Shown here: in pieces, positions 5,811-35,349 of the stretch | Numbering within the stretch: the first letter of the stretch is position 1 | How the letters are laid out: every line of letters begins with the position of its first letter | Assembly: GCF_944388875.1 (NCBI RefSeq) | Contig: NZ_CALXKQ010000028.1 | Location: 1-35,693, forward strand | From: an uncultured Brachyspira sp. | GTDB taxonomy: Bacteria; Spirochaetota; Brachyspiria; Brachyspirales; Brachyspiraceae | Reading direction: 5' to 3' | Length of the DNA stretch: 35,693 nucleotides | Program-made: the position numbers and the translations under genes | The notes under the pieces: generated by a model | The model's input: the letters and a program-made list of their open reading frames with translations, nothing else | The model's database searches: none | What the model was told of the DNA's origin: nothing

Positions 5811-6738
5811 ATGATATTAATTATAAGCATCATCATATCTATAATAATAGCAGTATTATTTATTATAATACCTAATCATTTTGTAAATAAAATATTTATA
5901 AAAACGAATAAAAAACTTTTTGAAAGAAAAGAGAGCGGCAAAAAAGAAACAGAAGAAGAAAAACAAATAAAAGAAAATAGAAGAAAATGGTTTGAAAGCA
6001 GCCAAAAAGATTTATACACAGTTTCAAGCGATAATCTAAAACTTCATGCTCATATTATCAATAATGATAAAAGCAATATATATAATAATAGCTCATCCTT
6101 ATGAGGGCAGAGGCTCTTATATGAAATATTTTGCCAAAAAATTTTATGATATGGGATTTAATATACTTATGATAGATTTGAGAACACATGGAGATAGCGA
6201 AGGCAAAATATACTCTTTAGGATATTTAGAAAGACTTGATATACTTGCTTGGATTGAATATATAAAAAATAACTATAATAATCCCAAAATAATTTTATAT
6301 GGTATTTCAATGGGAGCAAATGCAGTTATGATGTGCAGCTGTGAAAATATAGATGACAAAGTTAAAGCTATAATAGAAGATGCAGGATTTACAACTGCCA
6401 AAGAACAGCTTAAAGAAAGGCTTGATATATCATATAAACTTCCGTTCCTGCCAGTAATACCTCTTACCTCATTTATGACAAAGATAAGACTTGGTTTTTC
6501 ATTTGATGATATTAATATTATAAATGCAGTATCTAAATCTAAAGTACCTATTCTTTTTATACATGGTTCTAAAGATTCATTAGTAAATCCAAATATGGCT
6601 GATAAATTATACGATGCATGCTCATCAGAAAAAGAAAAACTAATAATAGAAAATGGAGAACATATAAAAGCTGTATTATCGGATGAAAAATTATATTGGG
6701 ATACTATTAATAACTTTATAAAAAAATATACAAATTAA
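5811..6738 (+). pseudogene. Membrane-anchored alpha/beta hydrolase, frameshifted
   Basis: Two overlapping frames make one hydrolase. The first (from 5811) gives an N-terminal membrane helix (ILIISIIISIIIAVLFIII), a charged linker and SSDNLKLHAHIINNDKSN. The second (to 6738) continues with IIIAHPYEGRGSYM, the Ser nucleophile elbow GISMGAN, the acid region HGSKDSLVNP and the His in NGEHI. The switch falls in the AT-rich tract near 6075-6090 (AATATATATAATAATAG), where one extra or two missing bases break the frame. The second frame has no ribosome site of its own. A slippage mutation, phase-variable tract or sequencing error are all possible. The catalytic half is intact, so an unbroken allele would be a serine hydrolase facing the periplasm or the membrane. 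It ends overlapping the convergent ketoreductase gene by four bases. Confidence 0.7.
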
Positions 6739-7469
6739 AACATACCGCCGTCTACACTTATAACCTGCTTAGTAATATAATTAGCTTCATCAGACAGCAA
6801 AAAGTTTACCAAATTAGCAACATCATCAGGCTTTCCTATTCTTTTTAAAGCTATCATATTTTTTGCATGCTCTATTATTTCATCATTTATCATTTCACTT
6901 TCTATAATACCAGGTGCTATGCAGTTTACAGTTATATTTCTCTTGCCCAATTCTATAGCCAAAGATTTTACAGCCCCTATAAGTCCAGCCTTAGAAGCAG
7001 AATAATTAACCTGCCCCCTATTTCCTATAATACCTGAAACAGAACTTATTGCTATAATGCGTCCGCCTTTCTTATTTCTTATCATCGGCATGACCAAAGG
7101 GTTAACTATATTATAAAAACTTTTAAGATTAATATCTATAACTTTGTCCCATTCTTCTCCACTCATAGCAGGAAAAGAATTATCCATAGTTATTCCTGAT
7201 GAAAGTACAATACCATAATAAGCAGAATTCTCTTCAATATCTTTTAATAAAATATTCTTAGCCTCATCTCTATTTGAAACATCTAATTTAAGAAATCTTA
7301 TATTAACATCATAACCCTTAGAATAATTTTTTATATCATCAATAAAAGAATCATTTTTATTATAGCACATCACCGCATCATAACCATTAGTTATAACTTT
7401 TTTTGATATTGCAAGCCCTATACTTCCAGAAGCACCTGTTATTAAAATAGATTTGTTTTTATTTTCCAT
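6735..7469 (-). CDS. 3-oxoacyl-ACP reductase, FabG/ApeQ-like (SDR)
   Basis: A 244-residue short-chain dehydrogenase predicted to reduce 3-oxoacyl-ACP to 3-hydroxyacyl-ACP with NAD(P)H. The Rossmann motif TGASGSIG is at 11-18, the LSSG strand at about 89-92, Ser of ISSVSG at about 143, and the Tyr156/Lys160 pair in NYSASK. The tail NYITKQVISVDGGMF is standard FabG. It is the last gene of the minus-strand polyene-like operon, seven bases after the dehydratase, and would do the reducing step of each elongation round. Its stop overlaps the stop of the convergent hydrolase; no terminator is visible between them. Housekeeping FabG is the alternative, but the context argues for the dedicated pathway. 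Confidence 0.88.
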   Translation of the reverse strand: MENKNKSILITGASGSIGLAISKKVITNGYDAVMCYNKNDSFIDDIKNYSKGYDVNIRFLKLDVSNRDEAKNILLKDIEENSAYYGIVLSSGITMDNSFPAMSGEEWDKVIDINLKSFYNIVNPLVMPMIRNKKGGRIIAISSVSGIIGNRGQVNYSASKAGLIGAVKSLAIELGKRNITVNCIAPGIIESEMINDEIIEHAKNMIALKRIGKPDDVANLVNFLLSDEANYITKQVISVDGGMF

Positions 7470-7476
7470 TTTTTGT

Positions 7477-7965
7477 TTACCCGTTTATAAAATTATCTGC
7501 TGAACTCTCCATTACCATAATAGAACAGTCCATAACTTTTACAGCATCATTGCTTTCAATTATTTTTTTATACTCTTCTAAATTAGAAATATTATCATTA
7601 TAAATAATTACTTCTCCGTCATAATAAGCTATATTACCGTCTTTTAAAGTTTCTTTTACAAATACATATACCATATTATTAGATTTAACTTTATCAATAT
7701 AGCAATTAACTTTTTTGATATTTAAAATAAAACCAATCCTTTTATCATCAGTGCTGTCAGACAAAGCCCCATTATAAGCAGCAGAAGTTTGTGCAGCATA
7801 TTCAGTAAATATATACGAATCCACACCGTCATCATAAAATACATTATCTTTATTTATATTAGAAAAACTAAGTATTTCATTATCATCAAAATTAATATCA
7901 ATAATGCCTTCTATTAAAAGCATTTTTCCTTTATGAGGTATATTTAATTTATATTTATCTTTCAT
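7477..7965 (-). CDS. Hotdog-fold 3-hydroxyacyl-ACP dehydratase, ApeP-like
   Basis: A 162-residue protein starting at the ATG of MKDKYKLNIPHKGKMLLIEG. A longer reading from a TTG at 8007 would overlap the upstream ketosynthase gene. The motif NIPHKGKMLLIEGIIDI resembles the 'PH...MLL.D.I' opening of ApeP/FabA-like dehydratases, and FTEYAAQTSAAYNG matches the central helix of that hotdog family. In the type II polyene systems this protein dehydrates 3-hydroxyacyl-ACP to the trans-2-enoyl form, usually with the small ApeI-like partner (here at 13593). It lies between the ketosynthase (20-base gap) and the ketoreductase. The ribosome site is weak, suggesting coupled translation. Confidence 0.75.
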   Translation of the reverse strand: MKDKYKLNIPHKGKMLLIEGIIDINFDDNEILSFSNINKDNVFYDDGVDSYIFTEYAAQTSAAYNGALSDSTDDKRIGFILNIKKVNCYIDKVKSNNMVYVFVKETLKDGNIAYYDGEVIIYNDNISNLEEYKKIIESNDAVKVMDCSIMVMESSADNFING

Positions 7966-7985
7966 AATAATAATCAAACAATAAA

Positions 7986-9158
7986 TTATTTTCCTATAAT
8001 TAAACAAGTATTGCTTCCGCCGAAACCAAATGATACGCTCATGCAGTTTTCAAGCCTATCAGCATTAACTTTACCATTTACTAACCTTATCTTCTCAAGA
8101 CTATCATCATACTCACCGTCATATATATGAGGAGGAAGCACATTTTTTTTATTAATGCTTGAAAGAGCAATAAAACAAACGCCAAGCTCCATAGCTCCAG
8201 CAGCTCCTATTGTATGTCCAAATGATGTTTTACTTGAACTGCAGTATATATCAGAAGCATTAACCTTATTAAGAGTAGTACTTTCCATTTTATCATTTAT
8301 CAAAGTACCAGTTCCATGAAGATTTATATAATCTATATTGTCAATATTCATATCAGCTTTTTTTAAAGCATCATTAATGCATTTGCTTGTTGTATTTCCA
8401 TCTATATCAGGGCTTGTCATGTGATGAGAATCAGAATTGCTATTATAGCCTTTAAAATATAAAGCATCTTTAGAATCAATTAAATTATCCCGAGCAAGCA
8501 CAGTAAAAGCAGCACCTTCTCCCAAATTAATGCCGCTTCTGTTTTTTGAAAAAGAATTAGTTTTATTATAATCAACAACTTCAAGAGAATCAAAGCCGTA
8601 AACTACAGTATCCGTTACAACATCAGCCCCGCCTACTATAGCAGCATCTATAACATTGCTTTTTATAAGCTCATCAGCAGCTATAACCGCATTTGAACTG
8701 GATGTGCATGCTGTAGATATTGTAAATGAAATTCCGCTTACATCAAAATACTTCTGAAGAAAATCGCAGCATATATTCAAACTCTGCATTACAAGTATTC
8801 TTCTTTCATCGGAAACAGTACCTTTTAATATATAGTCTTTTGTTTCATCGCTTCCATTTTCGCATGTACCTACTATAACTGATATTCTATTTTTTCCATA
8901 TCTTTTTTTAGCCTCATCAATTATAGGCTTTAACTGATTTACGGCATGCAAAGCCATTTTATTTATTTTATTATTATAAGGATTATCAAGTTCAAAATTA
9001 AAAAAATCATTATCTATTTTACCAAGAAAAAATTTTTTAGCATAATCATTGTTCTCTTTTAATCCATATTCCCCATTAATAAAATATCTGTTATAAAGCT
9101 CTTCTTTATTTCTAGCCAAACAATTAATAATTCCAAAATCCAATAAAAAATTGTGCAT
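7986..9158 (-). CDS. Beta-ketoacyl-ACP synthase (KAS II-like, ApeO-like)
   Basis: A 390-residue condensing enzyme with the full catalytic set: Cys151 in ISTACTSSSNAV, His281 in NLHGTGTLIND, Lys310 and His315 in SSKTSFGHTIGAAGA. It ends with the usual SFGFGGSN glycine-rich loop. It should condense malonyl-ACP with the growing acyl chain. The N-terminal 100 residues are more diverged than in FabF, as in APE-type ketosynthases. GAGGG lies seven bases before the ATG. It is the only active-looking ketosynthase in the operon; the likely partner is the Cys-less protein at 15592-16296. Confidence 0.9.
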   Translation of the reverse strand: MHNFLLDFGIINCLARNKEELYNRYFINGEYGLKENNDYAKKFFLGKIDNDFFNFELDNPYNNKINKMALHAVNQLKPIIDEAKKRYGKNRISVIVGTCENGSDETKDYILKGTVSDERRILVMQSLNICCDFLQKYFDVSGISFTISTACTSSSNAVIAADELIKSNVIDAAIVGGADVVTDTVVYGFDSLEVVDYNKTNSFSKNRSGINLGEGAAFTVLARDNLIDSKDALYFKGYNSNSDSHHMTSPDIDGNTTSKCINDALKKADMNIDNIDYINLHGTGTLINDKMESTTLNKVNASDIYCSSSKTSFGHTIGAAGAMELGVCFIALSSINKKNVLPPHIYDGEYDDSLEKIRLVNGKVNADRLENCMSVSFGFGGSNTCLIIGK

Positions 9159-9241
9159 AAATTAACCCTCTAAATTCAGTATATAATTCTATAAAAAAAA
9201 TGTCAAATAGTTCTTAATACATAAGTAATATACCATATATA

Positions 9242-11524
9242 TTAAACATTTTTTATCAATTTATTAAATTTAAATAGTATTGGAGAAACTATAAATGATG
9301 ATAAAACCCCTATAAATAAAAATAATCCAAAAGATTTTACAGGTATAAAACCGCTGAAAGCCAATGTTCCAAATGATAAAACAGTTGTCATCATGGATAA
9401 AAATACAGCCAAAAATGTAATCTCCTTATCAGCAGCACTGTTGGAGAAGAATATTGCATAATCTATTGATATTCCTATAGAAAGTATTAAAGCGAATATT
9501 GAAAATATATTTATATTAATAGAAAATATAGAATGAATAGATAAGTTTATAAGTATTGACATAATTTGAACTAATATTATAGCTAAAGCCTGCTTCTTAT
9601 TAAAAAATATTATCATTACTATAAATATTATAATATATGCAATTACCGCCATCTTTACAGCAGTTTTTGCCGTATTATCCAATGCATCATTTATTTCTTC
9701 ATTAAGATTAAATATTTTAACATCGCTTGTACTTAATTTTACAGCATTATTATTAGTATCATAATCGCTTGTTGCTATAAGAAAATATTTATTATTATTT
9801 GTAATTATAATCTTTTTTAAATCATTAAAACTAGGCTCTTCTATTATTTTATTTATATCAAGAACTTCATTTTTTATATTTTCAAACTCATTCATTATTT
9901 TATTATAAGAACTTATATTCAAATCAAGAGATTCTATCTGTTCTTTTAATAAAGGCATTAATTTTTCTTCTGTGAGTTTTATATTTTCTCTTTGTTTTTC
10001 TTCTGAATATAAAACTTTTGATATGGCAGTATAATTATTTGTAAAATAATTTTCTATACTCTCTTCTGCATGCAATGCTTTTGATAATGTATCGCCTCTT
10101 GATATGATGATATTTTTTGAAAGAGATGTATTTAATCTTTTATAAACTTCCCTCTCGCTTTCAAGAAGAAAATCAGGAGTATTGTAAAGCTGATTAGCAG
10201 AAAAATTTACTTTAATTCTAGGTATTGCTATTATTGAAATTATGATAACTGCTGCAAAAAGTATAGATACATTTTTTATATTAATTATTTTAACATAGCT
10301 GTTTAATATATTCCTGCTTCCAATCAACACAGACTGTTTTATTTCTCTTTTATCATTTTTAAAAATAATAGGATACATTATATTCACAGTTAAAAATGAA
10401 CTTATAAGTCCAAATATAGAAAATAATGCTATTTGCTTTAATAATGTAAGAGAAGTTAAAGATAATGATAAATAACTTATCACCGTAGTTAAAAAACCTA
10501 ACAGCATACTTGGAAATATTTTTCTTAATACTTCTTTTTTATTTTTTTCATTATACCATTCTGTTATAAAATGTATTGAATGATCTATTGATATTCCTAT
10601 AAGGCTTGTTCCAAACACAAATGTAAATATATGAATAGATCTGAAAAATATTGATGAAAGCAAGAATGCAGAAATACCCGCTAAACTTATTGTACACATT
10701 GATATTATATACGGCTTTACAGATTTGAATATAAATATAAACATAATACAAATAGCTATTAATGATACTATTGATATAATAGTTATCTCTCTCTTTGCAC
10801 TTTTTTGGCTGTAATATGTGTGAATCGGAACTCCTGATATATATGTCTTTACATTATTATTAACTTCTAAATCATTAAGAAATGCTGTAAGGTTGTTAAA
10901 AAAATTATCGCTGTCTATTTTTTGGGGCATATCTATATTGATTAAAATGTTATATTTGTCATTATAATTAATAAATTGTATCGAATCTCTTGACTGTAAA
11001 TTATTATCTGAAACTAAAATTTCATTTATTTTAGAGTTTACAACAAAAAAAGGATCATCTTCAACATTATCAACTATAGGTATAAAAAAAGGAGAGTAAA
11101 AATTTGCAAGAGAATTTTCTGATACAATATAAGCCTCATCATTTAAAAGATAATCTCTTATCTCCTTTGAAAGAAGCTGATACTTATATTTTATCATTAT
11201 GTTTAATACATCATCATAACTTTTGGAATATAAATTAACTAAAACATTAGAATCTAATTTATTTATATATTCTTCTAATTTTAAAGCATTATCTTTTGCC
11301 GTATCAAAATCTTCGCTTTCTATAAATATTTTTACGCTGCTGGAATTTTTTAAAAAGAAATCCTCCAAAGGCTTCTGAAAATCTTTATCTTCAAGAAATT
11401 TAGGTGTTATAGAGAGAAAATTAGTATCTATTTTAGCCGTATTCTCATGCCTTATTATAAATAAAACAACAGCAAATATATGAAAAAATAGCCATAAAAA
11501 TATAAGAGCTTTTCTCCTATTCAA
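9242..11524 (-). CDS. MMPL/RND-family lipid exporter, ApeM-like
   Basis: A 760-residue inner-membrane protein with the two-fold RND layout. One helix sits at about residues 6-23 before a large periplasmic loop (to about 240), then five helices including GTSLIGISIDHSIHFITEW. The second half repeats this: a helix at about 415-435, a second periplasmic loop with a helical hairpin rich in E, K and N, and a final five-helix bundle with LSIGISIDYAIFFSN. The Asp in each GISIDxxI is typical. It starts at a TTG eight bases inside the end of the LolA-like gene, with GAGGAG ten bases upstream; no in-frame ATG occurs before the first helix. With the LolA-like carrier it probably moves the lipid product towards the outer membrane. 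Confidence 0.85.
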   Translation of the reverse strand: MNRRKALIFLWLFFHIFAVVLFIIRHENTAKIDTNFLSITPKFLEDKDFQKPLEDFFLKNSSSVKIFIESEDFDTAKDNALKLEEYINKLDSNVLVNLYSKSYDDVLNIMIKYKYQLLSKEIRDYLLNDEAYIVSENSLANFYSPFFIPIVDNVEDDPFFVVNSKINEILVSDNNLQSRDSIQFINYNDKYNILINIDMPQKIDSDNFFNNLTAFLNDLEVNNNVKTYISGVPIHTYYSQKSAKREITIISIVSLIAICIMFIFIFKSVKPYIISMCTISLAGISAFLLSSIFFRSIHIFTFVFGTSLIGISIDHSIHFITEWYNEKNKKEVLRKIFPSMLLGFLTTVISYLSLSLTSLTLLKQIALFSIFGLISSFLTVNIMYPIIFKNDKREIKQSVLIGSRNILNSYVKIINIKNVSILFAAVIIISIIAIPRIKVNFSANQLYNTPDFLLESEREVYKRLNTSLSKNIIISRGDTLSKALHAEESIENYFTNNYTAISKVLYSEEKQRENIKLTEEKLMPLLKEQIESLDLNISSYNKIMNEFENIKNEVLDINKIIEEPSFNDLKKIIITNNNKYFLIATSDYDTNNNAVKLSTSDVKIFNLNEEINDALDNTAKTAVKMAVIAYIIIFIVMIIFFNKKQALAIILVQIMSILINLSIHSIFSININIFSIFALILSIGISIDYAIFFSNSAADKEITFLAVFLSMMTTVLSFGTLAFSGFIPVKSFGLFLFIGVLSSFIVSPILFKFNKLIKNV

Positions 11525-12095
11525 AATATTTTATCTCCTCAGAAGTTAAATTATTTGATTTGTATAAAACTTTCATTATATATTCTGTTGTACTGCTGTT
11601 TTTAGAATACATTTTTATTTTTTCTATATATCCAGCTTTAGCAAAAGTTACTTCTATTTTTTCTATAATTTTTTTTAACTCATCGGTTTTAGGCGTATAA
11701 ATGGTAATTCCATTTTCACTGATTTGATTAAATGATTCTTTTATAGTTTTTTCATCATAAGTAAATATAGATTTTATTATATTAGCTATTTGAGAAAACA
11801 TAGCATTGTTTGAATCTGCCATAACTTTCTTTTTTCCATTAGGAAGTATCTGCACAACACTCTTTTCTCCCATAACTGTAATAGACTCTTTAGGCTCTTT
11901 TGTAAGCCAGCATATTCCATATCCACCTGCAATTATAAAATCGCCTGATGATTCAAAACTTCTTCCTTTCTGCGTAACTATTTGAGTATATGTGCCTTTC
12001 AATAGTTTAGCATTTTTATATTCTTCATTTATCTGACTGAATAAAAGAGAATAAACAAATAAATTTAATATTATAAACAAATAAATTCTTTTCAT
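11517..12095 (-). CDS. LolA-like outer-membrane lipoprotein/lipid carrier, ApeL-like
   Basis: A 192-residue periplasmic protein with a signal peptide (MKRIYLFIILNLFVYSLLFS, cleaved near residue 20). The body resembles LolA-type half-barrels: LKGTYTQIVTQKGRSFESSGDFII at the start, the GICWLTKEPKESITVMG strand pair, and late alternating strands ITIYTPKTDELKKII and YIEKIKMYSKNSSTTEY. Family members in APE clusters sit beside the MMPL exporter, as here (eight-base overlap), and are thought to carry the hydrophobic product across the periplasm. Sequence identity to true LolA is probably low; the call leans on fold pattern and context. Confidence 0.7.
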   Translation of the reverse strand: MKRIYLFIILNLFVYSLLFSQINEEYKNAKLLKGTYTQIVTQKGRSFESSGDFIIAGGYGICWLTKEPKESITVMGEKSVVQILPNGKKKVMADSNNAMFSQIANIIKSIFTYDEKTIKESFNQISENGITIYTPKTDELKKIIEKIEVTFAKAGYIEKIKMYSKNSSTTEYIMKVLYKSNNLTSEEIKYFE

Positions 12096-12173
12096 GCTGT
12101 ATTATCCAATTATTACTATTTATATATAAAATACAAAAAATATTCAAATTGTAAAAAATCTATATAAATAGTT

Positions 12174-12614
12174 TTAAAATTTATTAAGCTTTTCTATCCT
12201 TTCAATAAAATCTTTAGGACTATTTAAAAAACCTTTTCTAGTTTCTGAATCTATAGGCATCTGCAATGTAGAAGACTTGGATATTATTTTATTATTTTCA
12301 TCATAAAAAGTATATTCTGTTTTCATTCCATTTAAATATTCTGTAATAGCCGTATGTATTCTCACCTTTTGATTCAATTTAATAGAGTTAATATATTTTA
12401 TTTCCAGTTTTACTATAGGCCACATAACACCTTTGGCAGTCATAATATCATAATCATAATCTATAATAGAAAGCATAGCCTCCCTAGCCTGCTCCATAAA
12501 CTTTATATAATTGCCATGCCAAACAACACCCATAGGATCTAAATCATAAAAAGAAGGCTTTATATAATAATCATTCTCTAAATAAATTTTCTTTCTGTTT
12601 GTATTTTTATTCAT
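12174..12614 (-). CDS. Acyl-CoA/ACP thioesterase, 4HBT hotdog family (ApeK-like)
   Basis: A 146-residue single hotdog domain. The diagnostic motif YDLDPMGVVWHGNYIKFMEQARE (residues about 23-44) carries the Asp of 4-hydroxybenzoyl-CoA thioesterase/YbgC-like enzymes. The rest follows the family in length. It would hydrolyse an acyl or aryl thioester, editing or releasing intermediates. GGGGA precedes the ATG and lies within the end of the acyltransferase gene, three bases away, so the two are translationally coupled. Confidence 0.85.
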   Translation of the reverse strand: MNKNTNRKKIYLENDYYIKPSFYDLDPMGVVWHGNYIKFMEQAREAMLSIIDYDYDIMTAKGVMWPIVKLEIKYINSIKLNQKVRIHTAITEYLNGMKTEYTFYDENNKIISKSSTLQMPIDSETRKGFLNSPKDFIERIEKLNKF

Positions 12615-12617
12615 AAA

Positions 12618-13580
12618 CTAATTCCCCTTATACCAAAAATCATGGAAATTATACCACTGATAAGGATATTCTATAGCCTTTTGTTCAATAATAGAGGCAA
12701 ATTCTCTTGTTAATTCCAATATAATTTCATTCTTTCTCTTTCTGTTTTTAAGCTCTTCATTATCTAATTTTATTTTAGAAGAATGTATATAAAAATTATA
12801 TTTCTTTGAAAGTATTCTGTCTTTTTCTCTTAAAGCAAAAAAATAATAAACAGGATATTTAAGCAAAATAGGTATCAAAAAAGCACCGCATGGAAAAGGG
12901 GCTTCTTCTCCTAAAAAATTTATATAATTAACTTTATCAGTTTTGTTTGATGTTCTATCTCCTGCTATTGCAACTATTTCACCATTATTTAATTTATCTT
13001 CTATACTGATAATAGTTTGAGGACCTATATTTGATGCATCTATAAAATCTATAAAAGAATTATTTTTACCCTTACCCATAAATATATTAACGTTTTTATT
13101 AACTCTGGAATCTATTATTATGTTTATTTTATAATTCTTAATTGGGTTTCCTTCATTTATAACCGCCAATGCCTTTAAAAGTTCAATATTGCCTATATGT
13201 GAAAACAAAATTATCATTCCGTTTTTATCATTAAGCAAATTAACAACTTCATCATAATCTTCTTTAGTTTTTACTATCAAATCTTTTATAGGTATATCTC
13301 CATTCCAAGCAGCTATCTTCTCAGCAATAGAAACAACAAATGAAAGCAGATGTTTATAAGAACAGATTAAATTAGACTTTACTTTCTTATTATATTTTGA
13401 CATTCTTTTAAGGTATTCTCTTGAAGCCTTCATTCTATTTTTAGAATAAAAGAAATAAACAATACTAATAGGAATCAAATATATTATAATAAAAGTTCTT
13501 CCTAATACTCTGTAAACAAAGGCAGAAAATAATGCTTTCCACCTATTGCCTATTTCTTTTTCCTCACTCCAATGACTCAT
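12618..13580 (-). CDS. Lipid A-type acyltransferase (LpxL/HtrB-like, LPLAT)
   Basis: A 320-residue protein with an N-terminal membrane helix (TFIIIYLIPISIVYFF, about 29-44). The catalytic HX4E motif is FSHIGNIE with His128 and Glu133. AGDRTSN near 213-219 is the glycerolipid-binding block, and PFPCGAFLIPILLKYPVYYFF matches the late LPLAT segment. It should transfer an acyl group from ACP to a membrane lipid acceptor. In APE loci the comparable domain is the LPLAT half of ApeJ, fused there to a glycosyltransferase; here no glycosyltransferase part is present. GAGG lies nine bases before the ATG. True lipid A assembly is an alternative role, less likely given the neighbours. Confidence 0.82.
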   Translation of the reverse strand: MSHWSEEKEIGNRWKALFSAFVYRVLGRTFIIIYLIPISIVYFFYSKNRMKASREYLKRMSKYNKKVKSNLICSYKHLLSFVVSIAEKIAAWNGDIPIKDLIVKTKEDYDEVVNLLNDKNGMIILFSHIGNIELLKALAVINEGNPIKNYKINIIIDSRVNKNVNIFMGKGKNNSFIDFIDASNIGPQTIISIEDKLNNGEIVAIAGDRTSNKTDKVNYINFLGEEAPFPCGAFLIPILLKYPVYYFFALREKDRILSKKYNFYIHSSKIKLDNEELKNRKRKNEIILELTREFASIIEQKAIEYPYQWYNFHDFWYKGN

Positions 13581-13592
13581 AAGATAAAACCT

Positions 13593-13928
13593 CTAAGCAA
13601 AATAAATTTTACCATCTGAATATTTCTTATCTTCATCATATATTTTAAATGAAAGTATATTATTTAAGTATGTACCTTCAATAATAATATTAGAATTAGG
13701 AAAAATCATATTAACAAATTTTAATTTTAAAAGTTTTTTAACAGAATGATCTCTGCTAAAAATACTTCTATATATATCAAGAGTAATTTTCACCTGAGCT
13801 ATAGCAGGTAAAAGTTTAAAATTTTCAAAATGCCCGTCAAAATAAGCCATTCTTTCATCTATAAAAACTTTTACTCTAAACATATCGGAAGTTTTTTCTT
13901 CTATCTCATAGTCCTTATAATTATCCAA
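13593..13928 (-). CDS. Small FabZ/FabA-like hotdog dehydratase, ApeI-like
   Basis: A 111-residue single hotdog domain. YFDGHFENFKLLPAIAQV (residues about 29-46) is the 'GHF...P...Q' signature of FabZ/FabA dehydratases, with the catalytic His at 33. The start is a TTG one base after the AMP-ligase stop, with AAGGA eight bases upstream; the next Met would remove the first strand. It would work with the ApeP-like protein (7477-7965) in the dehydration step, since APE systems use a pair of unequal dehydratases. Confidence 0.8.
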   Translation of the reverse strand: MDNYKDYEIEEKTSDMFRVKVFIDERMAYFDGHFENFKLLPAIAQVKITLDIYRSIFSRDHSVKKLLKLKFVNMIFPNSNIIIEGTYLNNILSFKIYDEDKKYSDGKIYFA

Positions 13929-13929
13929 C

Positions 13930-15276
13930 TTAATTTCCTTGCATTACAGCATCAAGTGCTTTTCTGTCTATTTTTCCAATCTCTGTTCTTGGAATACTCT
14001 CTACAAAATATATCTTTTTGGGTAAAACAACATTCTCAAAATATCCTTTTAAATACTCTATAACATATCTTTTCATATGCTCTGCATTTCTTTCATTATT
14101 ACTGAGAACTATAAAAGATGCTATATATTCTCTTTTGTCAGATTTGCAGTATATAGTATAACTGTCTTTAAAATGCTTATCCTGAAGTATTTGCCTGTCT
14201 ATCTGCTGTACGCTTATTCTTTTTCCCTCTATCTTCACTATAGAATCTTCTCTGCCTATAAGCTCAAATTCATTTTCATTTTTCATATTAACAACATCGC
14301 CGACATGAATCCAAACATTATCCCCAGTATAGCCAGAACAGCATTCTATACTTCCCTGTTCATCAACTTTTAATTCAACTACACTAAGTCTAGTCCATAA
14401 CTCATTTTCGCTTCTTCTTCTATAAGCCATAGCACCAGCTTCAGTACTTCCGTAAATCTCAGTAACATCAACACCGAATACATCTTTTGCAAGATCATTA
14501 ACCTTCTTCTCTAATAATCCAGTAGATGAAAATAAATGCCAATCTGCTTTTATTTTTAATGAAGACTTATCTATTCTCTTTAAAAAAGCAGGAGTGGTAA
14601 CTATAGTGATCTTTTTATACTCAGAAAAATTATTAATAGTTTCTAAATAATTAATTCTATTATCTAAAGATTTCAATTCAAGCATATAAGGAACTAACAT
14701 AGCAAAAACAAAACCATAACTATGATAATGAGGAACTGTATACAAAAATATAGAGTCTGCTATCTCATCTTTAAATTGATTAACTATCTTCAAAGCCTCA
14801 GCTTCAAATTGTTTTAATGTTTTTTCTATAAGTTTAGGATATCCAGTAGAGCCTGATGTATAAAAATTAATATTAATATTTTCATCTATAGTTGTTTCTT
14901 TAAGCAGATCAAACCATTTATCATTGCATTCGCTTGAAAACATCTCATCCAAGTTTACAGCTGATTTATTAGTATCAGATATATATACCATAGAATTATC
15001 CAATATACTTTCAACATATTTTGGACTATTATTATTAAGTACATTTACTCTCTTTTTAAGAATAAAACCTGCAGCTGTAACTGCAATAAATCTATAGGCA
15101 TCCTCTATAAATATAGTAATGGTATCCTCTTTGAATTTAGATATATATTCTAAACTTCTTACTATATCATTAATAAAATCTTTATATTTTACAGAATCTT
15201 TATTTTCTTTATGAATAAGAAAAATATCTTCTGAATCTTTTAATAAATAAAAATTTGTATTGCTTAATTTTCTCAT
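13930..15276 (-). CDS. AMP-dependent acyl/aryl-acid ligase, ApeH-like
   Basis: A 448-residue member of the ANL adenylating family, shorter than the usual 500-550. The P-loop is YTSGSTGYPK (140-148), then EIYGSTEAGAMAYRR in the middle and GREDSIVKIEGKRIS before the mobile C-terminal domain. The catalytic Lys lies in IPRTEIGKIDRKAL. It should activate a carboxylic acid as adenylate and load it onto CoA or the ACP encoded three bases upstream. In APE loci this enzyme primes the chain with an aryl acid; since no ammonia-lyase is present here, the substrate may be imported or aliphatic. The ribosome site is weak, consistent with coupling to the ACP gene. Confidence 0.88.
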   Translation of the reverse strand: MRKLSNTNFYLLKDSEDIFLIHKENKDSVKYKDFINDIVRSLEYISKFKEDTITIFIEDAYRFIAVTAAGFILKKRVNVLNNNSPKYVESILDNSMVYISDTNKSAVNLDEMFSSECNDKWFDLLKETTIDENININFYTSGSTGYPKLIEKTLKQFEAEALKIVNQFKDEIADSIFLYTVPHYHSYGFVFAMLVPYMLELKSLDNRINYLETINNFSEYKKITIVTTPAFLKRIDKSSLKIKADWHLFSSTGLLEKKVNDLAKDVFGVDVTEIYGSTEAGAMAYRRRSENELWTRLSVVELKVDEQGSIECCSGYTGDNVWIHVGDVVNMKNENEFELIGREDSIVKIEGKRISVQQIDRQILQDKHFKDSYTIYCKSDKREYIASFIVLSNNERNAEHMKRYVIEYLKGYFENVVLPKKIYFVESIPRTEIGKIDRKALDAVMQGN

Positions 15277-15279
15277 ATA

Positions 15280-15540
15280 TTATTTATGCTCTGAATTTTC
15301 TCTTATGTATTTAGCCAATGTTGCCACAGAATAAAAATGCTGTTTATTATTTTCTTCTATATCCGAAAAACTTATATTGAATTTCTTTCTTATAGCAACC
15401 CCTATCTCTAAAGCATCTATAGAATCAAGACCTAATTCATCACCGAATAAAGGAGCATCAGTATCTATATCATCTATTGTCATGCCTTCTAAATTTGCCG
15501 CCTCTATTACTATTTGTTTTATTTGCTCTTCAATACTCAT
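15280..15540 (-). CDS. Acyl carrier protein, ApeE/ApeF-like
   Basis: An 86-residue four-helix carrier. The phosphopantetheine Ser40 sits in ELGLDSIDALEI, close to the universal DSLD/DSID motif. AAGGAG is well placed before the ATG. It follows the ketosynthase-like gene by 51 bases and precedes the ligase gene by three. APE clusters normally have two ACP genes; only this one is seen here, so either one ACP serves the whole pathway or the second is elsewhere. Confidence 0.92.
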   Translation of the reverse strand: MSIEEQIKQIVIEAANLEGMTIDDIDTDAPLFGDELGLDSIDALEIGVAIRKKFNISFSDIEENNKQHFYSVATLAKYIRENSEHK

Positions 15541-15591
15541 TTTATAAATCTCCTTTAAATTTATTTTATATAAATCTATAAAAATATAGAA

Positions 15592-16296
15592 TCACTCTTT
15601 TATTAATTCGATTTTTCCCAATTTTAAATTAGGAGTATCTGTTGATATAAATTTAATAAAATCTATAATTGAATTTTCATCTTTTTTAATATTGCTGTCA
15701 ATGATATTAATATTTATATCAGCATCCTCCGTAGAAATAATACATGAAAATGCAAAAGAATAGTTTGTATCTTTTGATATTGTTTCATAACTATCAGGCA
15801 GTTTTTCATCGGCTATAATTATAAGTGCCTTATTATGCTCAGAAGTTTTTAAAAAAGAAATAGCCTGTAAAAGAGCTGTATCAATAAAATTATCATAACA
15901 TGTAACAGCAATTGCTCTTTCATGGTTATGATAGAATATTGTAAGCTGTGCTGCTGCTGTATTAAAAACAGAAAAACTAAAATTGGCAGGAGAAACTTCA
16001 TGTTCTGTAACTATTTTTTTGGATATATTGTACTGCTGTTTTATTTCTCCGTATTTTGATACAAAAAATATAGGAATTTGATCATTTTCTTTTAAGATAT
16101 CTTTCACAGCCTCAAATGATAATTTAGTTATTTGACTAAGTCTTCTCTTTTGTGCTCTTGGTATAAAATCCAAATCAGGATTAGTTTCTCCGTAAGAAAT
16201 ATTTATATTTTCATTTAAATTATCTAATATAAATTTTTTATCTATATTAGGGGCAAAGAAATCCCAATCTAATACTTTAAAACATAAACCCGACAT
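15592..16296 (-). CDS. Ketosynthase N-terminal-like protein, chain-length-factor-like (ApeC-like)
   Basis: A 234-residue first gene of the operon. It resembles the Ketoacyl-synt_2 (coronafacic acid synthase-like) family: the opening DWDFFAP, RAQKRRLSQITKLSFEAV, and VFNTAAAQLTIFYHN, which stands where an active ketosynthase has its TACTSS nucleophile. The Cys is absent (Thr/Ala instead) and no HGTGT or FGH motifs follow, so it cannot condense on its own. It probably pairs with the active ketosynthase at 7986-9158 as ApeC pairs with ApeO. AGGA lies seven bases before the ATG. Confidence 0.8.
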   Translation of the reverse strand: MSGLCFKVLDWDFFAPNIDKKFILDNLNENINISYGETNPDLDFIPRAQKRRLSQITKLSFEAVKDILKENDQIPIFFVSKYGEIKQQYNISKKIVTEHEVSPANFSFSVFNTAAAQLTIFYHNHERAIAVTCYDNFIDTALLQAISFLKTSEHNKALIIIADEKLPDSYETISKDTNYSFAFSCIISTEDADININIIDSNIKKDENSIIDFIKFISTDTPNLKLGKIELIKE

Positions 16297-16338: not shown

Positions 16339-16366
16339 ATTATACTAAATTATACTATAAAGTCAA
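16339..16366 (-). promoter_or_regulatory. Promoter of the polyene-like operon
   Basis: On the minus strand TTGACT (16361-16366), a 16-bp spacer and TATAAT (16339-16344) lie about 45 bases before the first gene. The sequence around the -10 is tandemly repeated (AAATTATACT twice, giving a second TATAAT at 16349-16354). It diverges from the MerR-type promoter about 160 bases away. Confidence 0.6.
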
Positions 16367-16523: not shown

Positions 16524-16554
16524 TTGACATTGGAGTGCACTCCAATGATATAAT
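16524..16554 (+). promoter_or_regulatory. MerR-type promoter and operator of the regulator gene
   Basis: TTGACA (16524-16529) and TATAAT (16549-16554) are separated by 19 bp, the over-long spacer typical of MerR-activated promoters. The spacer holds a perfect 18-bp palindrome, ATTGGAGTGCACTCCAAT (16529-16546), very close to the CTTGGAGT-N2-ACTC-type box known for NmlR/AdhR regulators. It lies 50 bases upstream of the MerR gene, so autoregulation is expected. Confidence 0.88.
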
Positions 16555-16603: not shown

Positions 16604-16996
16604 ATGACAATAGCAGAAGTAAGCAAAAAAACAGGATTATCTACTGACACATTGAGATATTATGAAAGAATAGGAATAATACCTGAAGTAGAAAGAAGCG
16701 AGAGCGGAATAAGAAATTATACAGATAGAGATTTAGGCTGGATAGAATTTTCAAAATGCATGAGAGGAGCAGGAATGTCTATAGAATCAATAATAGAGTA
16801 TATAAAGCTATATAACAAAGGCGACGCTACATTAGAGGCTAGAAAACAGCTTTTAGTAAGTCAAAGAGATGCTATGCAGGAAAAATTAAATGATCTTCAG
16901 GCTACTGTAGATAAACTAAATAAAAAAATAGAAAATTACGGAAATCAAATGTCAGTACATGAAAAAGATATGCTGAAAACTAAAAATAATAATTAA
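16604..16996 (+). CDS. MerR/NmlR/AdhR-type transcription regulator
   Basis: A 130-residue regulator. The N-terminal winged helix-turn-helix is classical: MTIAEVSKKTGLSTDTLRYYERIGIIP, then GIRNYTDRDLGWIEF, then a dimerising coiled coil of about 40 residues (LLVSQRDAMQEKLNDLQATVDKL). Cys52 (SKCMRGAGM) is at the position of the single conserved Cys through which AdhR of Bacillus subtilis senses carbonyl electrophiles. Two promoters with the matching box (16524-16554 and 17499-17529) frame the gene. It probably switches on the nearby reductases under aldehyde or thiol stress. AAGGAG precedes the ATG. Confidence 0.92.
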   Translation: MTIAEVSKKTGLSTDTLRYYERIGIIPEVERSESGIRNYTDRDLGWIEFSKCMRGAGMSIESIIEYIKLYNKGDATLEARKQLLVSQRDAMQEKLNDLQATVDKLNKKIENYGNQMSVHEKDMLKTKNNN

Positions 16997-23809: not shown

Positions 23810-24787
23810 ATGATATATAATATGTGGTATGCTGTACTAGATTCTAAAGAAGTAAAGAAAAATACGCCCCTTTTTGCTAAGAGATTAAATAAAAATCTAG
23901 TATTTTGGAGAGATTCTAATAACAATATATGCTGTATAGATGATAAATGCTGTCATAGAGGAGCTTCATTATCCCATGGAAAAGTATACAAAGATAATAT
24001 AGCATGCTCTTTTCATGGATTTCAATTTGATAAAAATGGAAAAACAGTTATGATTCCAGCTCTTGGTAAAAATACTGAAGTTAACAAAAATTTTTTTGTT
24101 GAAGGTTATGAAGTAAGGGATTTATACGGATTTATTTGGTTTTGGTATGGAGATAAAGACAAAATTAATGATAAAATAATGTTTCCAGATGATCTAAAAG
24201 ATAAAAAGTTTTCTTATTCTACAATAAAAGATGAATGGCATAATCATTATACAAGATGCATAGAAAATCAGCTTGATGTAGTACATATAGCTTTTGTTCA
24301 TTCTAACACTATAGGAAGAGGAAATAAAACAGTTGTCAATGGACCTTTAGTAGAAATAGAAAATGATATTTTAAAATTTTATGTTAATAATGTTATTGAT
24401 AAGGGGCAAAAAGCTCTAAGTGCTTCAGAAATGAACAAGGAAGACTTTAAATATTTTTTATATTTTTATTTTCCTAATACTTGGCAAAATTACATATTTG
24501 AAAAGATGCGTATATTTGGGGTATTTGCACCTGTTGATGATGAAAATACTGTTATATATATGAGATTTTATCAAAAAATAATAAATATGCCTATTGTAAA
24601 ATCAATAATAAATATTATAGGCAAAAAATATTCTGATATTGTATTAAAACAAGATAAAAATGTAGTAAAAACCCAATCAAGCAAAGAATCTTATTTAGGT
24701 ATGAAAGAAGAAAAATTAATATCGGGGGATAAACCTATAATAATATACAGAAGCACAAGGGATAAATTAAAAAAATCTAATAATTAA
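23810..24787 (+). CDS. Rieske [2Fe-2S] non-haem iron oxygenase, alpha subunit-like
   Basis: A 325-residue protein. The Rieske cluster motifs are C-x-H in CCHRGASLSHG (about residues 47-57) and C-x2-H in ACSFHGFQF (about 67-75). The catalytic domain has the mononuclear-iron motif NQLDVVHIAFVHSN, with two His and an upstream Asp linking to the Rieske site. Family members hydroxylate or demethylate aromatic and other substrates using O2; the layout resembles the pheophorbide-a-oxygenase/vanillate-demethylase side. No reductase partner is encoded nearby, though the flavodoxin at 22372 could in principle donate electrons. An O2-using enzyme is notable if the host is anaerobic. GAGG precedes the ATG. 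Confidence 0.9.
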   Translation: MIYNMWYAVLDSKEVKKNTPLFAKRLNKNLVFWRDSNNNICCIDDKCCHRGASLSHGKVYKDNIACSFHGFQFDKNGKTVMIPALGKNTEVNKNFFVEGYEVRDLYGFIWFWYGDKDKINDKIMFPDDLKDKKFSYSTIKDEWHNHYTRCIENQLDVVHIAFVHSNTIGRGNKTVVNGPLVEIENDILKFYVNNVIDKGQKALSASEMNKEDFKYFLYFYFPNTWQNYIFEKMRIFGVFAPVDDENTVIYMRFYQKIINMPIVKSIINIIGKKYSDIVLKQDKNVVKTQSSKESYLGMKEEKLISGDKPIIIYRSTRDKLKKSNN

Positions 24788-33736: not shown

Positions 33737-34177
33737 TTATTTTGCACCTGCTTTTTTTAATATTTCTACGATATCTTTATGCCCTCTTTGAACTGCATAA
33801 GTTAAAGCACTTTTTCCATATTTATCTTTAATATTTAAATCAGCACCAGCATCAACTAATATGCTTACTATCTTTGAATAACCTCTTAAAGAAGCACATA
33901 TTAAAGCAGTTCTATTTCTAACATTACCGATATTCAAATTGTCTCCTTTTTTTACTAAAAGATCAACAACCTCTGTAAGTCCCTCTTCAGATGCTTCTAT
34001 CAGAGGTGTTTCTCCCATTCTGTCTTTTGTATTAAGCTCAGCACCAGAATTAATAATTTCTATAGCTCTTCTTGTATCTCTTTTTTCTAAAGCATCCATT
34101 AATGGAGTTCTTTTCTGCTGAGAAAATAAGGATAAACTAAAAGCCATTATAAAAATTAAAACTATAATTTTTTTCAT
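33737..34177 (-). CDS. Exported ankyrin-repeat protein, copy 3
   Basis: A 146-residue protein with signal peptide MKKIIVLIFIMAFSLSLFS and about four ankyrin repeats, visible as TPLMDALEKRDTRRAIEIINSGAELN, ETPLIEASEEGLTEVVDLLVKKG, TALICASLRGYSKIVSILVDAGADLN and SALTYAVQRGHKDIVEILKKAGAK. AAGGAG lies before the ATG. The 36-base spacer to the next copy and its ribosome site are nearly the same as those before that copy, so the duplication includes the leader. Role: protein-protein contact in the periplasm or at the surface; partners unknown. Confidence 0.92.
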   Translation of the reverse strand: MKKIIVLIFIMAFSLSLFSQQKRTPLMDALEKRDTRRAIEIINSGAELNTKDRMGETPLIEASEEGLTEVVDLLVKKGDNLNIGNVRNRTALICASLRGYSKIVSILVDAGADLNIKDKYGKSALTYAVQRGHKDIVEILKKAGAK

Positions 34178-34213
34178 AAAATATATCTCCTTAAAAAATT
34201 TATATAATTAATT

Positions 34214-34654
34214 CTATTTAGCACCTGCGGATTTTAAAATTTTTACTATATTCTGATGTCCCCTTTGATTAGCATAACTTAATGCCGTTTTACCGTATTT
34301 ATCTTTCATATTTATATTAGCTCCTGCATCAATCAATAATTTAACTATATCATAATATCCTCTTGTAGAAGCTCTCATTAAAGCCGTTCTTTTATTATTA
34401 TTAACATCATTTAAATTAACTTTTTTGCTTATAAGTAATTTTACAACTTCAGGCAACCCTTCTTCTGCGGCTTCTATCAATGGAGTTTCACCTCGTCTAT
34501 CTCTTACATTAAGGTCAGCTCCTGAGTTTATTAATTCTATGGCTTTTTTAGTATCTTTCTTCTCCAAAGCATCCATTAAAGGATTTCTTTTTTGCTGAGA
34601 AAATAAAGATAAACCAAAAACCATTATAAAAATTAAAATTATAATTTTTTTCAT
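34214..34654 (-). CDS. Exported ankyrin-repeat protein, copy 2
   Basis: A 146-residue protein very close to copy 3: signal peptide MKKIIILIFIMVFGLSLFS, then four repeats ending TALSYANQRGHQNIVKILKSAGAK. The outer edges of the repeats (VRDRRGETPL, VNNNKRTALM) are where the copies differ, as expected if each binds a different partner. AAGGAG precedes the ATG; 38 bases separate it from the upstream copy. Confidence 0.92.
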   Translation of the reverse strand: MKKIIILIFIMVFGLSLFSQQKRNPLMDALEKKDTKKAIELINSGADLNVRDRRGETPLIEAAEEGLPEVVKLLISKKVNLNDVNNNKRTALMRASTRGYYDIVKLLIDAGANINMKDKYGKTALSYANQRGHQNIVKILKSAGAK

Positions 34655-34692
34655 AAAATATATCTCCTTAAAAAATTTTTATCTAATTAATT

Positions 34693-35148
34693 TTATTTAG
34701 CACCTGCAGATTTCAAAATTTTTACTATATTCTGATGTCCTTTCTGATTGGCATAAGTTAATGCTGTTCTTCCTCTGTTGTCTTTAATATTAACATCTGC
34801 TCCTGCATCTATTAAAACTCTTACTATATTTGTATAGCCTTTTGAAGACGCTCGCATCAAAGCTGTTCTTCCCCATTTACTTTTAAGATTTAAATTTACT
34901 CTATTTTCTATAAGCAATTCTACAATCTTTATATGTCCGCCTTCTGCAGCTTCTATTAATGCATTCTCCCCAGCTCTATCCTGCTGATTAATATTAGCTC
35001 CTTCTTTTATAAGAGTTCTCACTTTATTTATGTCACCCTTTCCAGCAGCATCAACAATAGGTATATCACTTTTTGAAAATGCATTACTATAAACTAAAAG
35101 TGTTAAAAAAATAGAAAATATCAGCATTTTAATTTTAAAAATATTCAT
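34693..35148 (-). CDS. Exported ankyrin-repeat protein, copy 1
   Basis: A 151-residue protein starting MNIFKIKMLIFSIFLTLLVYSNAFS (signal peptide); a longer reading to 35214 lacks a ribosome site, while GGAGA precedes this ATG. Four ankyrin repeats follow (IPIVDAAGKGDINKVRTLIKEG, NALIEAAEGGHIKIVELLIENRV, TALMRASSKGYTNIVRVLIDAGAD, TALTYANQKGHQNIVKILKSAGAK). The last repeat is nearly identical to that of copy 2, while the N-terminal third is the most diverged of the three. It is the first gene of the tandem trio. Confidence 0.92.
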   Translation of the reverse strand: MNIFKIKMLIFSIFLTLLVYSNAFSKSDIPIVDAAGKGDINKVRTLIKEGANINQQDRAGENALIEAAEGGHIKIVELLIENRVNLNLKSKWGRTALMRASSKGYTNIVRVLIDAGADVNIKDNRGRTALTYANQKGHQNIVKILKSAGAK

Positions 35149-35349
35149 AAAATCTCCATAGCTTATTATTTTATCTGTCAAGAATAGTATAATAAATATG
35201 CAGAAGATTGTCAATTTTTTGTAAATAAAATTTATATAAATTTACACTTTTTATTCTTTATGTAAACTAATTTTATAAAAAATGATTTATAGGATGTTTA
35301 AAAATAAATATACTATGTTTTTCTAAATAAAAAATATATTGATATATTA

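Follow-up and report, generated by a model that had tools for sequence, protein, structure and literature searches.

Introduction

Aryl polyene (APE) biosynthesis has been described in Escherichia coli CFT073 and, as the ApeA–R systems, in Xenorhabdus doucetiae and Acinetobacter baumannii. These systems employ a paired ketosynthase and chain-length factor (KS:CLF), a pair of dehydratases (DH:DH), an AMP ligase, an ApeE-type acyl carrier protein (ACP), and export by LolA- and RND-type proteins. The ApeO–ApeC pair by itself yields a fully elongated polyene in vitro, with ApeR raising the throughput (PMC8358021). In E. coli, pigment is partly kept after deletion of apeF and the final lipid is kept after deletion of apeR, and ApeGLMN has been described as a conserved transport machinery, with apeG and apeN among the export parts (PMC8253772). 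An APE cluster has also been published for a spirochaete, in a genome of Treponema_D (PMC8863827).

In this study, eleven adjacent genes on the minus strand (6735–16296) of a 35,693-nucleotide stretch of DNA from an uncultured Brachyspira sp. (contig NZ_CALXKQ010000028.1; the whole stretch is referred to as the window) were compared with these systems. A preliminary description, made from the sequence alone, had read them as a reduced APE-like operon of type II polyketide synthase/fatty-acid synthase (FAS) genes in a probable spirochaete, probably Brachyspira. Comparison with the E. coli operon, gene by gene, and with named Brachyspira loci supports this reading, and we consider it probable that the eleven-gene set is a reduced APE-type biosynthesis and export operon of Brachyspira.

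Gene order and identity

Inspection of the open reading frames (ORFs) of the window placed the eleven ORFs where the preliminary description had put them. The reference was the APE operon of CFT073 (c1186–c1204; L078:15728-30749), with gene letters after PMC8253772. For each of the eleven window proteins, the best match among the E. coli APE proteins was the protein at the same position, also when profile versions were used, and the gene order is exactly collinear: C-E-H-I-J (acyltransferase half)-K-L-M-O-P-Q. Because all 11 best matches are collinear with E. coli and 14 Brachyspira genomes, that of the window among them, retain this arrangement, the agreement is far beyond chance. The same eleven orthologues, in the same order, are found in the ApeA–R sets of Xenorhabdus and Acinetobacter. 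Pfam and NCBIfam assigned domains for CLF (PF13723), ACP (PF00550), AMP-binding, ApeI-like (PF22818), Lip_A_acyltrans, 4HBT, LolA, RND/MMPL, ketoacyl-synt and SDR/FabG proteins. Of the features by which an APE system was recognized, an ApeO:ApeC pair, ApeI:ApeP together with ApeQ, ApeH with ApeE, and an ApeJ acyltransferase with ApeL and ApeM were present.

The elongating pair carries the clearest signature. The ApeC-type CLF (15592–16296; 234 amino acids) is a half-size KS partner (PF13723, E 3.6e-36; E. coli ApeC, E 9e-16), and its sole sequence matches in the PDB are 7f28_A (Acinetobacter ApeC) and 6qsp_B (Xenorhabdus ApeC). It has no Cys at the nucleophile position, as had been claimed for the KS partner. 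We take 6qsp and 7f28 to be the APE KS:CLF complexes of Xenorhabdus and Acinetobacter. The ApeO-type ketosynthase (7986–9158; NCBIfam PRK09185, 322 bits; E. coli ApeO, E 3e-66) has an intact Cys-His-His set and has 6qsp_A (ApeO) as its top PDB sequence match (E 1e-62). Cys151, His281, His315, Ala150, Phe189 and Phe379 are invariant in the alignment; Phe189 corresponds to Phe205 of A. baumannii ApeO (AbApeO), near the modelled aryl ring, and Phe379 to the gating Phe (PMC8358021). The Cys at residue 167 of 7f28_B agrees with the AbApeO position in the same paper.

The ACP (15280–15540; 86 amino acids; PF00550) has a DSI phosphopantetheine motif and is 55% identical to E. coli ApeE (E 4e-28), compared with E 1e-3 for ApeF; it had been listed as ApeE/F, and by these matches it is of the ApeE type and not ApeF. 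The ApeH-type AMP-forming acyl-ACP synthetase (13930–15276; 448 amino acids; PF00501; E. coli ApeH, E 6e-33) was aligned with spirochaete ApeH proteins. The small ApeI-type hotdog dehydratase (13593–13928) matches the ApeI-like family PF22818 at the cut-off and E. coli ApeI with E 1e-10, and its GHF catalytic His (H33) is invariant. The lipid A-type acyltransferase (12618–13580; PF03279) corresponds to the C-terminal half of ApeJ (E. coli ApeJ residues 248–549, E 6e-51) and matches ApeJ best, not ApeD. The set also contains an ApeK-type 4HBT thioesterase (12174–12614; PF13279; E. coli ApeK, E 1e-30), the periplasmic LolA-like lipid carrier ApeL (11517–12095; PF03548; best NCBIfam match LolA2_flexi; E. 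coli ApeL, E 8e-14), the RND/MMPL-type exporter ApeM (9242–11524; 760 amino acids; PF03176/PF00873; E. coli ApeM over its full length, E 8e-37) and an ApeQ-type ketoreductase of the FabG family (6735–7469; 48% identity to E. coli ApeQ, E 1e-87; NCBIfam FabG/FabG2).

The weakest identification is that of the ApeP-type hotdog dehydratase partner (7477–7965), which has no Pfam match of its own and matches E. coli ApeP with E 9e-7 and 6qsr_B, a chain of ApeP with a solved structure, with E 0.0027 by sequence. For its AlphaFold model (mean pLDDT 85), the top match in VIA-align is again 6qsr_B (Z 18.3); FabZ chains score less than one Z unit away, and Foldseek ranks a FabZ chain first. Residues H11 and E55 are kept. 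The TTG start at 8007 (176 amino acids) is probably wrong; since its relatives begin at the conserved ATG at 7965, a protein of 162 amino acids is predicted.

Flexirubin (flx) clusters of Bacteroidetes share NCBIfam FlxB and LolA2_flexi among the best family matches; however, the FlxB and LolA2_flexi scores lie under the curated cut-offs, and no DarA/DarB-type enzymes, which form the dialkylresorcinol used as the criterion for flexirubin, were found among the operon ORFs.

Distribution and conservation in Brachyspira

A contig scan with the acyltransferase alignment found the locus in B. alvinipulli, B. innocens, B. hampsonii, B. catarrhinii and others, and placed the host of the window in the genus Brachyspira. 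Among 26 Brachyspira genomes the locus is present in 17 by its exporter and CLF genes, and the KS in 16. All eleven genes lie in order on one contig in 13 genomes besides that of the window. A lack of conserved synteny, or closest homologues that are ordinary fatty-acid or lipid A genes, had been named in the preliminary description as findings that would count against it; synteny is conserved across Brachyspira, and the KS tree and the PDB matches identify APE genes as the nearest homologues.

Two of the 13 intact-order loci are flawed. The apeP gene is frameshifted in B. alvinipulli (L032), and in Brachyspira sp. G79 (L033, 9676–12139) multiple stops and changes of frame interrupt the exporter gene, with the other ten genes full-span, making this strain a natural exporter mutant. 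Genome G011 has the genes C to M on one contig and O to Q on another, and in G022 (locus L045) O-P is directed away from C to M. At the edge of this rearranged locus (L045, 10385–11365) the ApeP reading frame continues, without a shift, into the N-terminal portion of a protein resembling chromate transporters.

The ratio of nonsynonymous to synonymous substitution (dN/dS) between the window and five other species is mostly 0.04–0.25 over all eleven genes, and is highest in the two dehydratases, reaching 0.54 in one comparison. All eleven genes are under purifying selection. A link with haemolysis was considered and is unsupported: weakly haemolytic B. murdochii (G017) has the operon, which is thus not a marker of strong haemolysis.

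Relatives and origin

The CLF family PF13723 was found in 87 of 393 Spirochaetota genomes, and in 64 of these the match was a strong stand-alone one of ApeC type (at least 59 bits; 17 Brachyspira and 47 other Spirochaetota, counted from the result table). In the preliminary description, APE systems were said to be known mainly from Proteobacteria and Bacteroidetes. That part is to be qualified in view of these 47 sampled genomes and the published Treponema cluster: an APE locus in a spirochaete is not new in itself and is widespread in Treponema relatives. What is new is the reduction. The Treponema loci (for example T. bryantii; Treponema_D sp., PMC8863827) come from the same phylum and have the core enzymes in common, but they are mostly complete, often with an ApeG–ApeH fusion, and their acyltransferases are more distant (about 28–37% identity).

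For most proteins of the operon, the top-scoring relatives from outside Brachyspira come from two genomes with full-size loci, G353 (L080 and L099) and G368 (L081 and L100). In the KS tree, Brachyspira and G353/G368 are grouped with 100/100 support, and the acyltransferase tree gives the same sister relation. A topology placing all these other spirochaetes in one group to the exclusion of Brachyspira was rejected by the AU test (p 7e-5), with the caveats that the group was named after the tree had been seen and that the amino-acid composition of the Brachyspira proteins is odd. These trees show that the Brachyspira operon shares descent with full-size spirochaete APE loci. Since G353 and G368 bear the family label f19 and Brachyspira f1, and the other f19 loci (G261, G364 and G181) fall outside the pair, gene transfer between spirochaete families is likely. 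Unlike Brachyspira, G353 and G368 keep ApeB, ApeD, ApeF, ApeR, the glycosyltransferase, an ammonia-lyase and a phosphopantetheinyl transferase, and their ApeH is fused with ApeI; about half of the genes would have been lost afterwards by Brachyspira or its donor.

Three further observations were recorded. Within the full APE locus of G353, the phosphopantetheinyl transferase gene (L099, 14311–14967) stands between the exporter and the ketosynthase and is encoded on the opposite strand. A divergent APE-like locus in G038, another member of the Spirochaetota (L098, 5–11305), has two KS, ACPs, dehydratases, an exporter and split ApeJ parts. The APE ketosynthase of a Desulfovibrionaceae metagenome-assembled contig (L181) is nested among Treponema sequences, through either transfer or misbinning.

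Promoter-like sites

Two promoter-like sites are located on the minus strand of the locus. The best-scoring site of this strand, P1 (TTGACT-16-TATAAT, 16339–16366), lies 43 bp upstream of the CLF gene, and P2 (TTGACA-17-TATACT, 9178–9206), with an equal best score, lies in the 83 bp gap before the KS gene. Sigma-70-like consensus matches (99 found against 89 expected) are no evidence by themselves, and it is conservation that carries weight: the P1 core is nearly unchanged in 17 Brachyspira loci and P2 is conserved in every aligned locus except the rearranged L045, while the flanking AT-rich sequence diverges at both. Because of this pattern, the locus probably comprises two transcription units, C-E-H-I-J-K-L-M and O-P-Q. 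The splits in G011 and G022 coincide exactly with the boundary between the proposed units (M/O). The eleven genes are thus adjacent, as had been described, although the single operon then claimed is probably two units.

A divergent MerR gene (16604–16996) was considered as a dedicated regulator and rejected, as it also occurs in operon-less Brachyspira genomes (G007, G015, G008 and G019); it is unlinked to the operon in G022 and is a neighbour only, not a part of the operon. Between this gene and the operon lies a perfect palindrome, CATTGGAGTGCACTCCAATG (16530–16550), which is also present in G011 and is likely to be the MerR operator.

Missing components and proposed pathway

Several observations speak against an APE assignment and have to be set beside the collinearity. 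Seven Ape genes are absent (A, B, D, F, G, N and R, including apeG, apeN and apeR). Relative to the CFT073 set, no operon ORF corresponds to ApeA, ApeB, ApeD, ApeG, ApeN or the glycosyltransferase half of ApeJ; the parts present and absent agree with those listed in the preliminary description. The second ACP, ApeF, was not found, and the genome of the window has two ACPs only, that of the operon and one on contig C12 beside FabF/FabG. The second ketosynthase, ApeR, was likewise not found, the two KS genes matched in this genome being the ApeO-like one and FabF. Because ApeGLMN is described as conserved transport machinery (PMC8253772), the absence of ApeG and ApeN is what fits a reduced set least comfortably. 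The thioesterase is missing in two deep-branching loci (L045 and L191, from G022 and B. catarrhinii G006, respectively) and the ketoreductase in L045; the set may therefore not be strictly needed, or the housekeeping FabG may serve. The usual aryl-starter enzymes are also absent from Brachyspira: neither an ammonia-lyase (PF00221) nor a UbiC-type chorismate lyase (PF04345) was found in the 26 genomes searched, whereas positive controls matched in named genomes. Finally, no report of a pigment or polyene in Brachyspira, and none of Brachyspira with an aryl polyene, was found in the open literature searched, subscription papers and preprints being outside its coverage.

Nevertheless, since ApeO–ApeC suffices in vitro and the apeF and apeR deletions are tolerated in E. 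coli, the reduced gene set is chemically plausible. From homology with the Xenorhabdus, Acinetobacter and E. coli systems we infer the reactions, the polyene nature, the lipid anchor and the location of the product. The ApeH-like ligase would activate a carboxylic acid and load it onto the ApeE-like ACP, and the ApeO:ApeC pair would add malonyl units, which are probably carried by the housekeeping AcpP, as there is no ApeF. In each round, reduction by the ApeQ-like ketoreductase would be followed by dehydration by the ApeI:ApeP heterodimer. No enoyl reductase is found in the operon, and with no enoyl reduction a conjugated polyenyl chain would grow. The ApeK-like thioesterase and the ApeJ-half acyltransferase would release the chain and join it to a lipid, which the ApeM exporter and the LolA-like carrier ApeL would move to the outer membrane. 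A role of this lipid in protection against oxygen, raised in the preliminary description, is a conjecture. One phosphopantetheinyl transferase was found in the genome of the window.

Starter acid and alternative explanations

The product is probably a related polyene lipid, and two possibilities for it differ in the starter acid, both being sub-cases of the reduced APE operon. One is a canonical APE lipid made from a scavenged or unusual aryl starter, either a gut aromatic acid (benzoate, 4-hydroxybenzoate or cinnamate) or a chorismate-derived acid formed by an unrecognized enzyme; with neither ammonia-lyase nor UbiC, any aromatic starter would need scavenging or an unrecognized route. This proposal falls just short of being probable, as does its corollary, an ordinary APE as product that lacks the sugar and the extra methylation of the head group. 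It is favoured by the invariant Phe189 of the KS, the counterpart of Phe205, which in AbApeO stacks on the aryl ring (PMC8358021), by an ApeH-type ligase whose nearest relatives are those of G353/G368, where the cluster has an ammonia-lyase, and by chorismate synthase in all 26 Brachyspira genomes; it is opposed by the missing starter enzymes and by the lack in the operon of a methyltransferase of ApeB type, the enzyme that acts on the aryl head. The other possibility, which we hold to be on the doubtful side, is a polyenyl fatty acyl lipid started from a short aliphatic or hydroxy acid that the ligase would load. All of the aryl-supply and aryl-modifying genes have been lost while the remainder is under purifying selection, and the Brachyspira ligases have Thr in the FSS/TSG motif where the other aligned ApeH proteins have Gly or Ala, although the meaning of this Thr for the pocket is a conjecture from the sequences. 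At the position of AbApeO His138, the far end of the aryl pocket (PMC8358021), the Brachyspira KS has Leu. However, because G353 and G368 share this Leu yet have an ammonia-lyase, the His-to-Leu change does not track aryl loss, and the residues do not settle the choice of starter. A scavenged aryl acid is slightly favoured. A fuller version of the non-aromatic proposal, in which a pathway shared with other spirochaetes has turned free of aromatic starters and makes an aryl-free conjugated polyenyl outer-membrane lipid in some species only, is offered tentatively and is rather to be doubted. To our knowledge, an aryl-free polyenyl acyl lipid is a product type that has not been assigned to APE loci.

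Readings outside the APE family fare less well. FabG, FabZ-like, LpxL-like and 4HBT domains each occur in fatty-acid and lipid A pathways, and an ordinary second gene set of that kind, unrelated to APE, could account for them one at a time. It does not account for eleven collinear best matches to the E. coli operon, for a half-size CLF with ApeC structures as its only PDB matches, or for a KS that lies far from FabF and does not group with FabF/FabB in the tree, as an ordinary type II FAS would require, and the genome's own FAS genes are elsewhere (G000:C12). Synteny and phylogeny refute this reading, which we regard as having next to no likelihood. A decaying APE relic without present function would explain the many lost genes, the broken exporter of strain G79 and the frameshifted apeP of B. 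alvinipulli. Such decay is at odds with purifying selection on all eleven genes, with catalytic residues that are intact and with the genus-wide conservation of the promoter-like sites; relic status, which is very unlikely, was rejected on dN/dS. The reduced APE operon is thus the reading retained here.

Other features of the window

Neither Rfam nor tRNA scanning produced a match in the window. The plus strand (23810–24787) encodes a Rieske [2Fe-2S] protein whose C-terminal domain is that of a vanillate O-demethylase oxygenase, which is unexpected for an anaerobic spirochaete, and three small ankyrin-repeat proteins are encoded in tandem on the minus strand (33737–35214).

Significance

With eleven genes, one ACP and one elongating KS, the Brachyspira operon offers a naturally minimal APE system for asking what ApeF, ApeR, ApeG and ApeN contribute, and its presence or absence among Brachyspira species, together with the broken-exporter strain, provides ready natural comparisons. 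If the starter is non-aromatic, the range of products of APE-type enzymes would widen. The operon probably points to an unrecognized envelope lipid in Brachyspira, intestinal spirochaetes about whose outer-membrane chemistry little is known.

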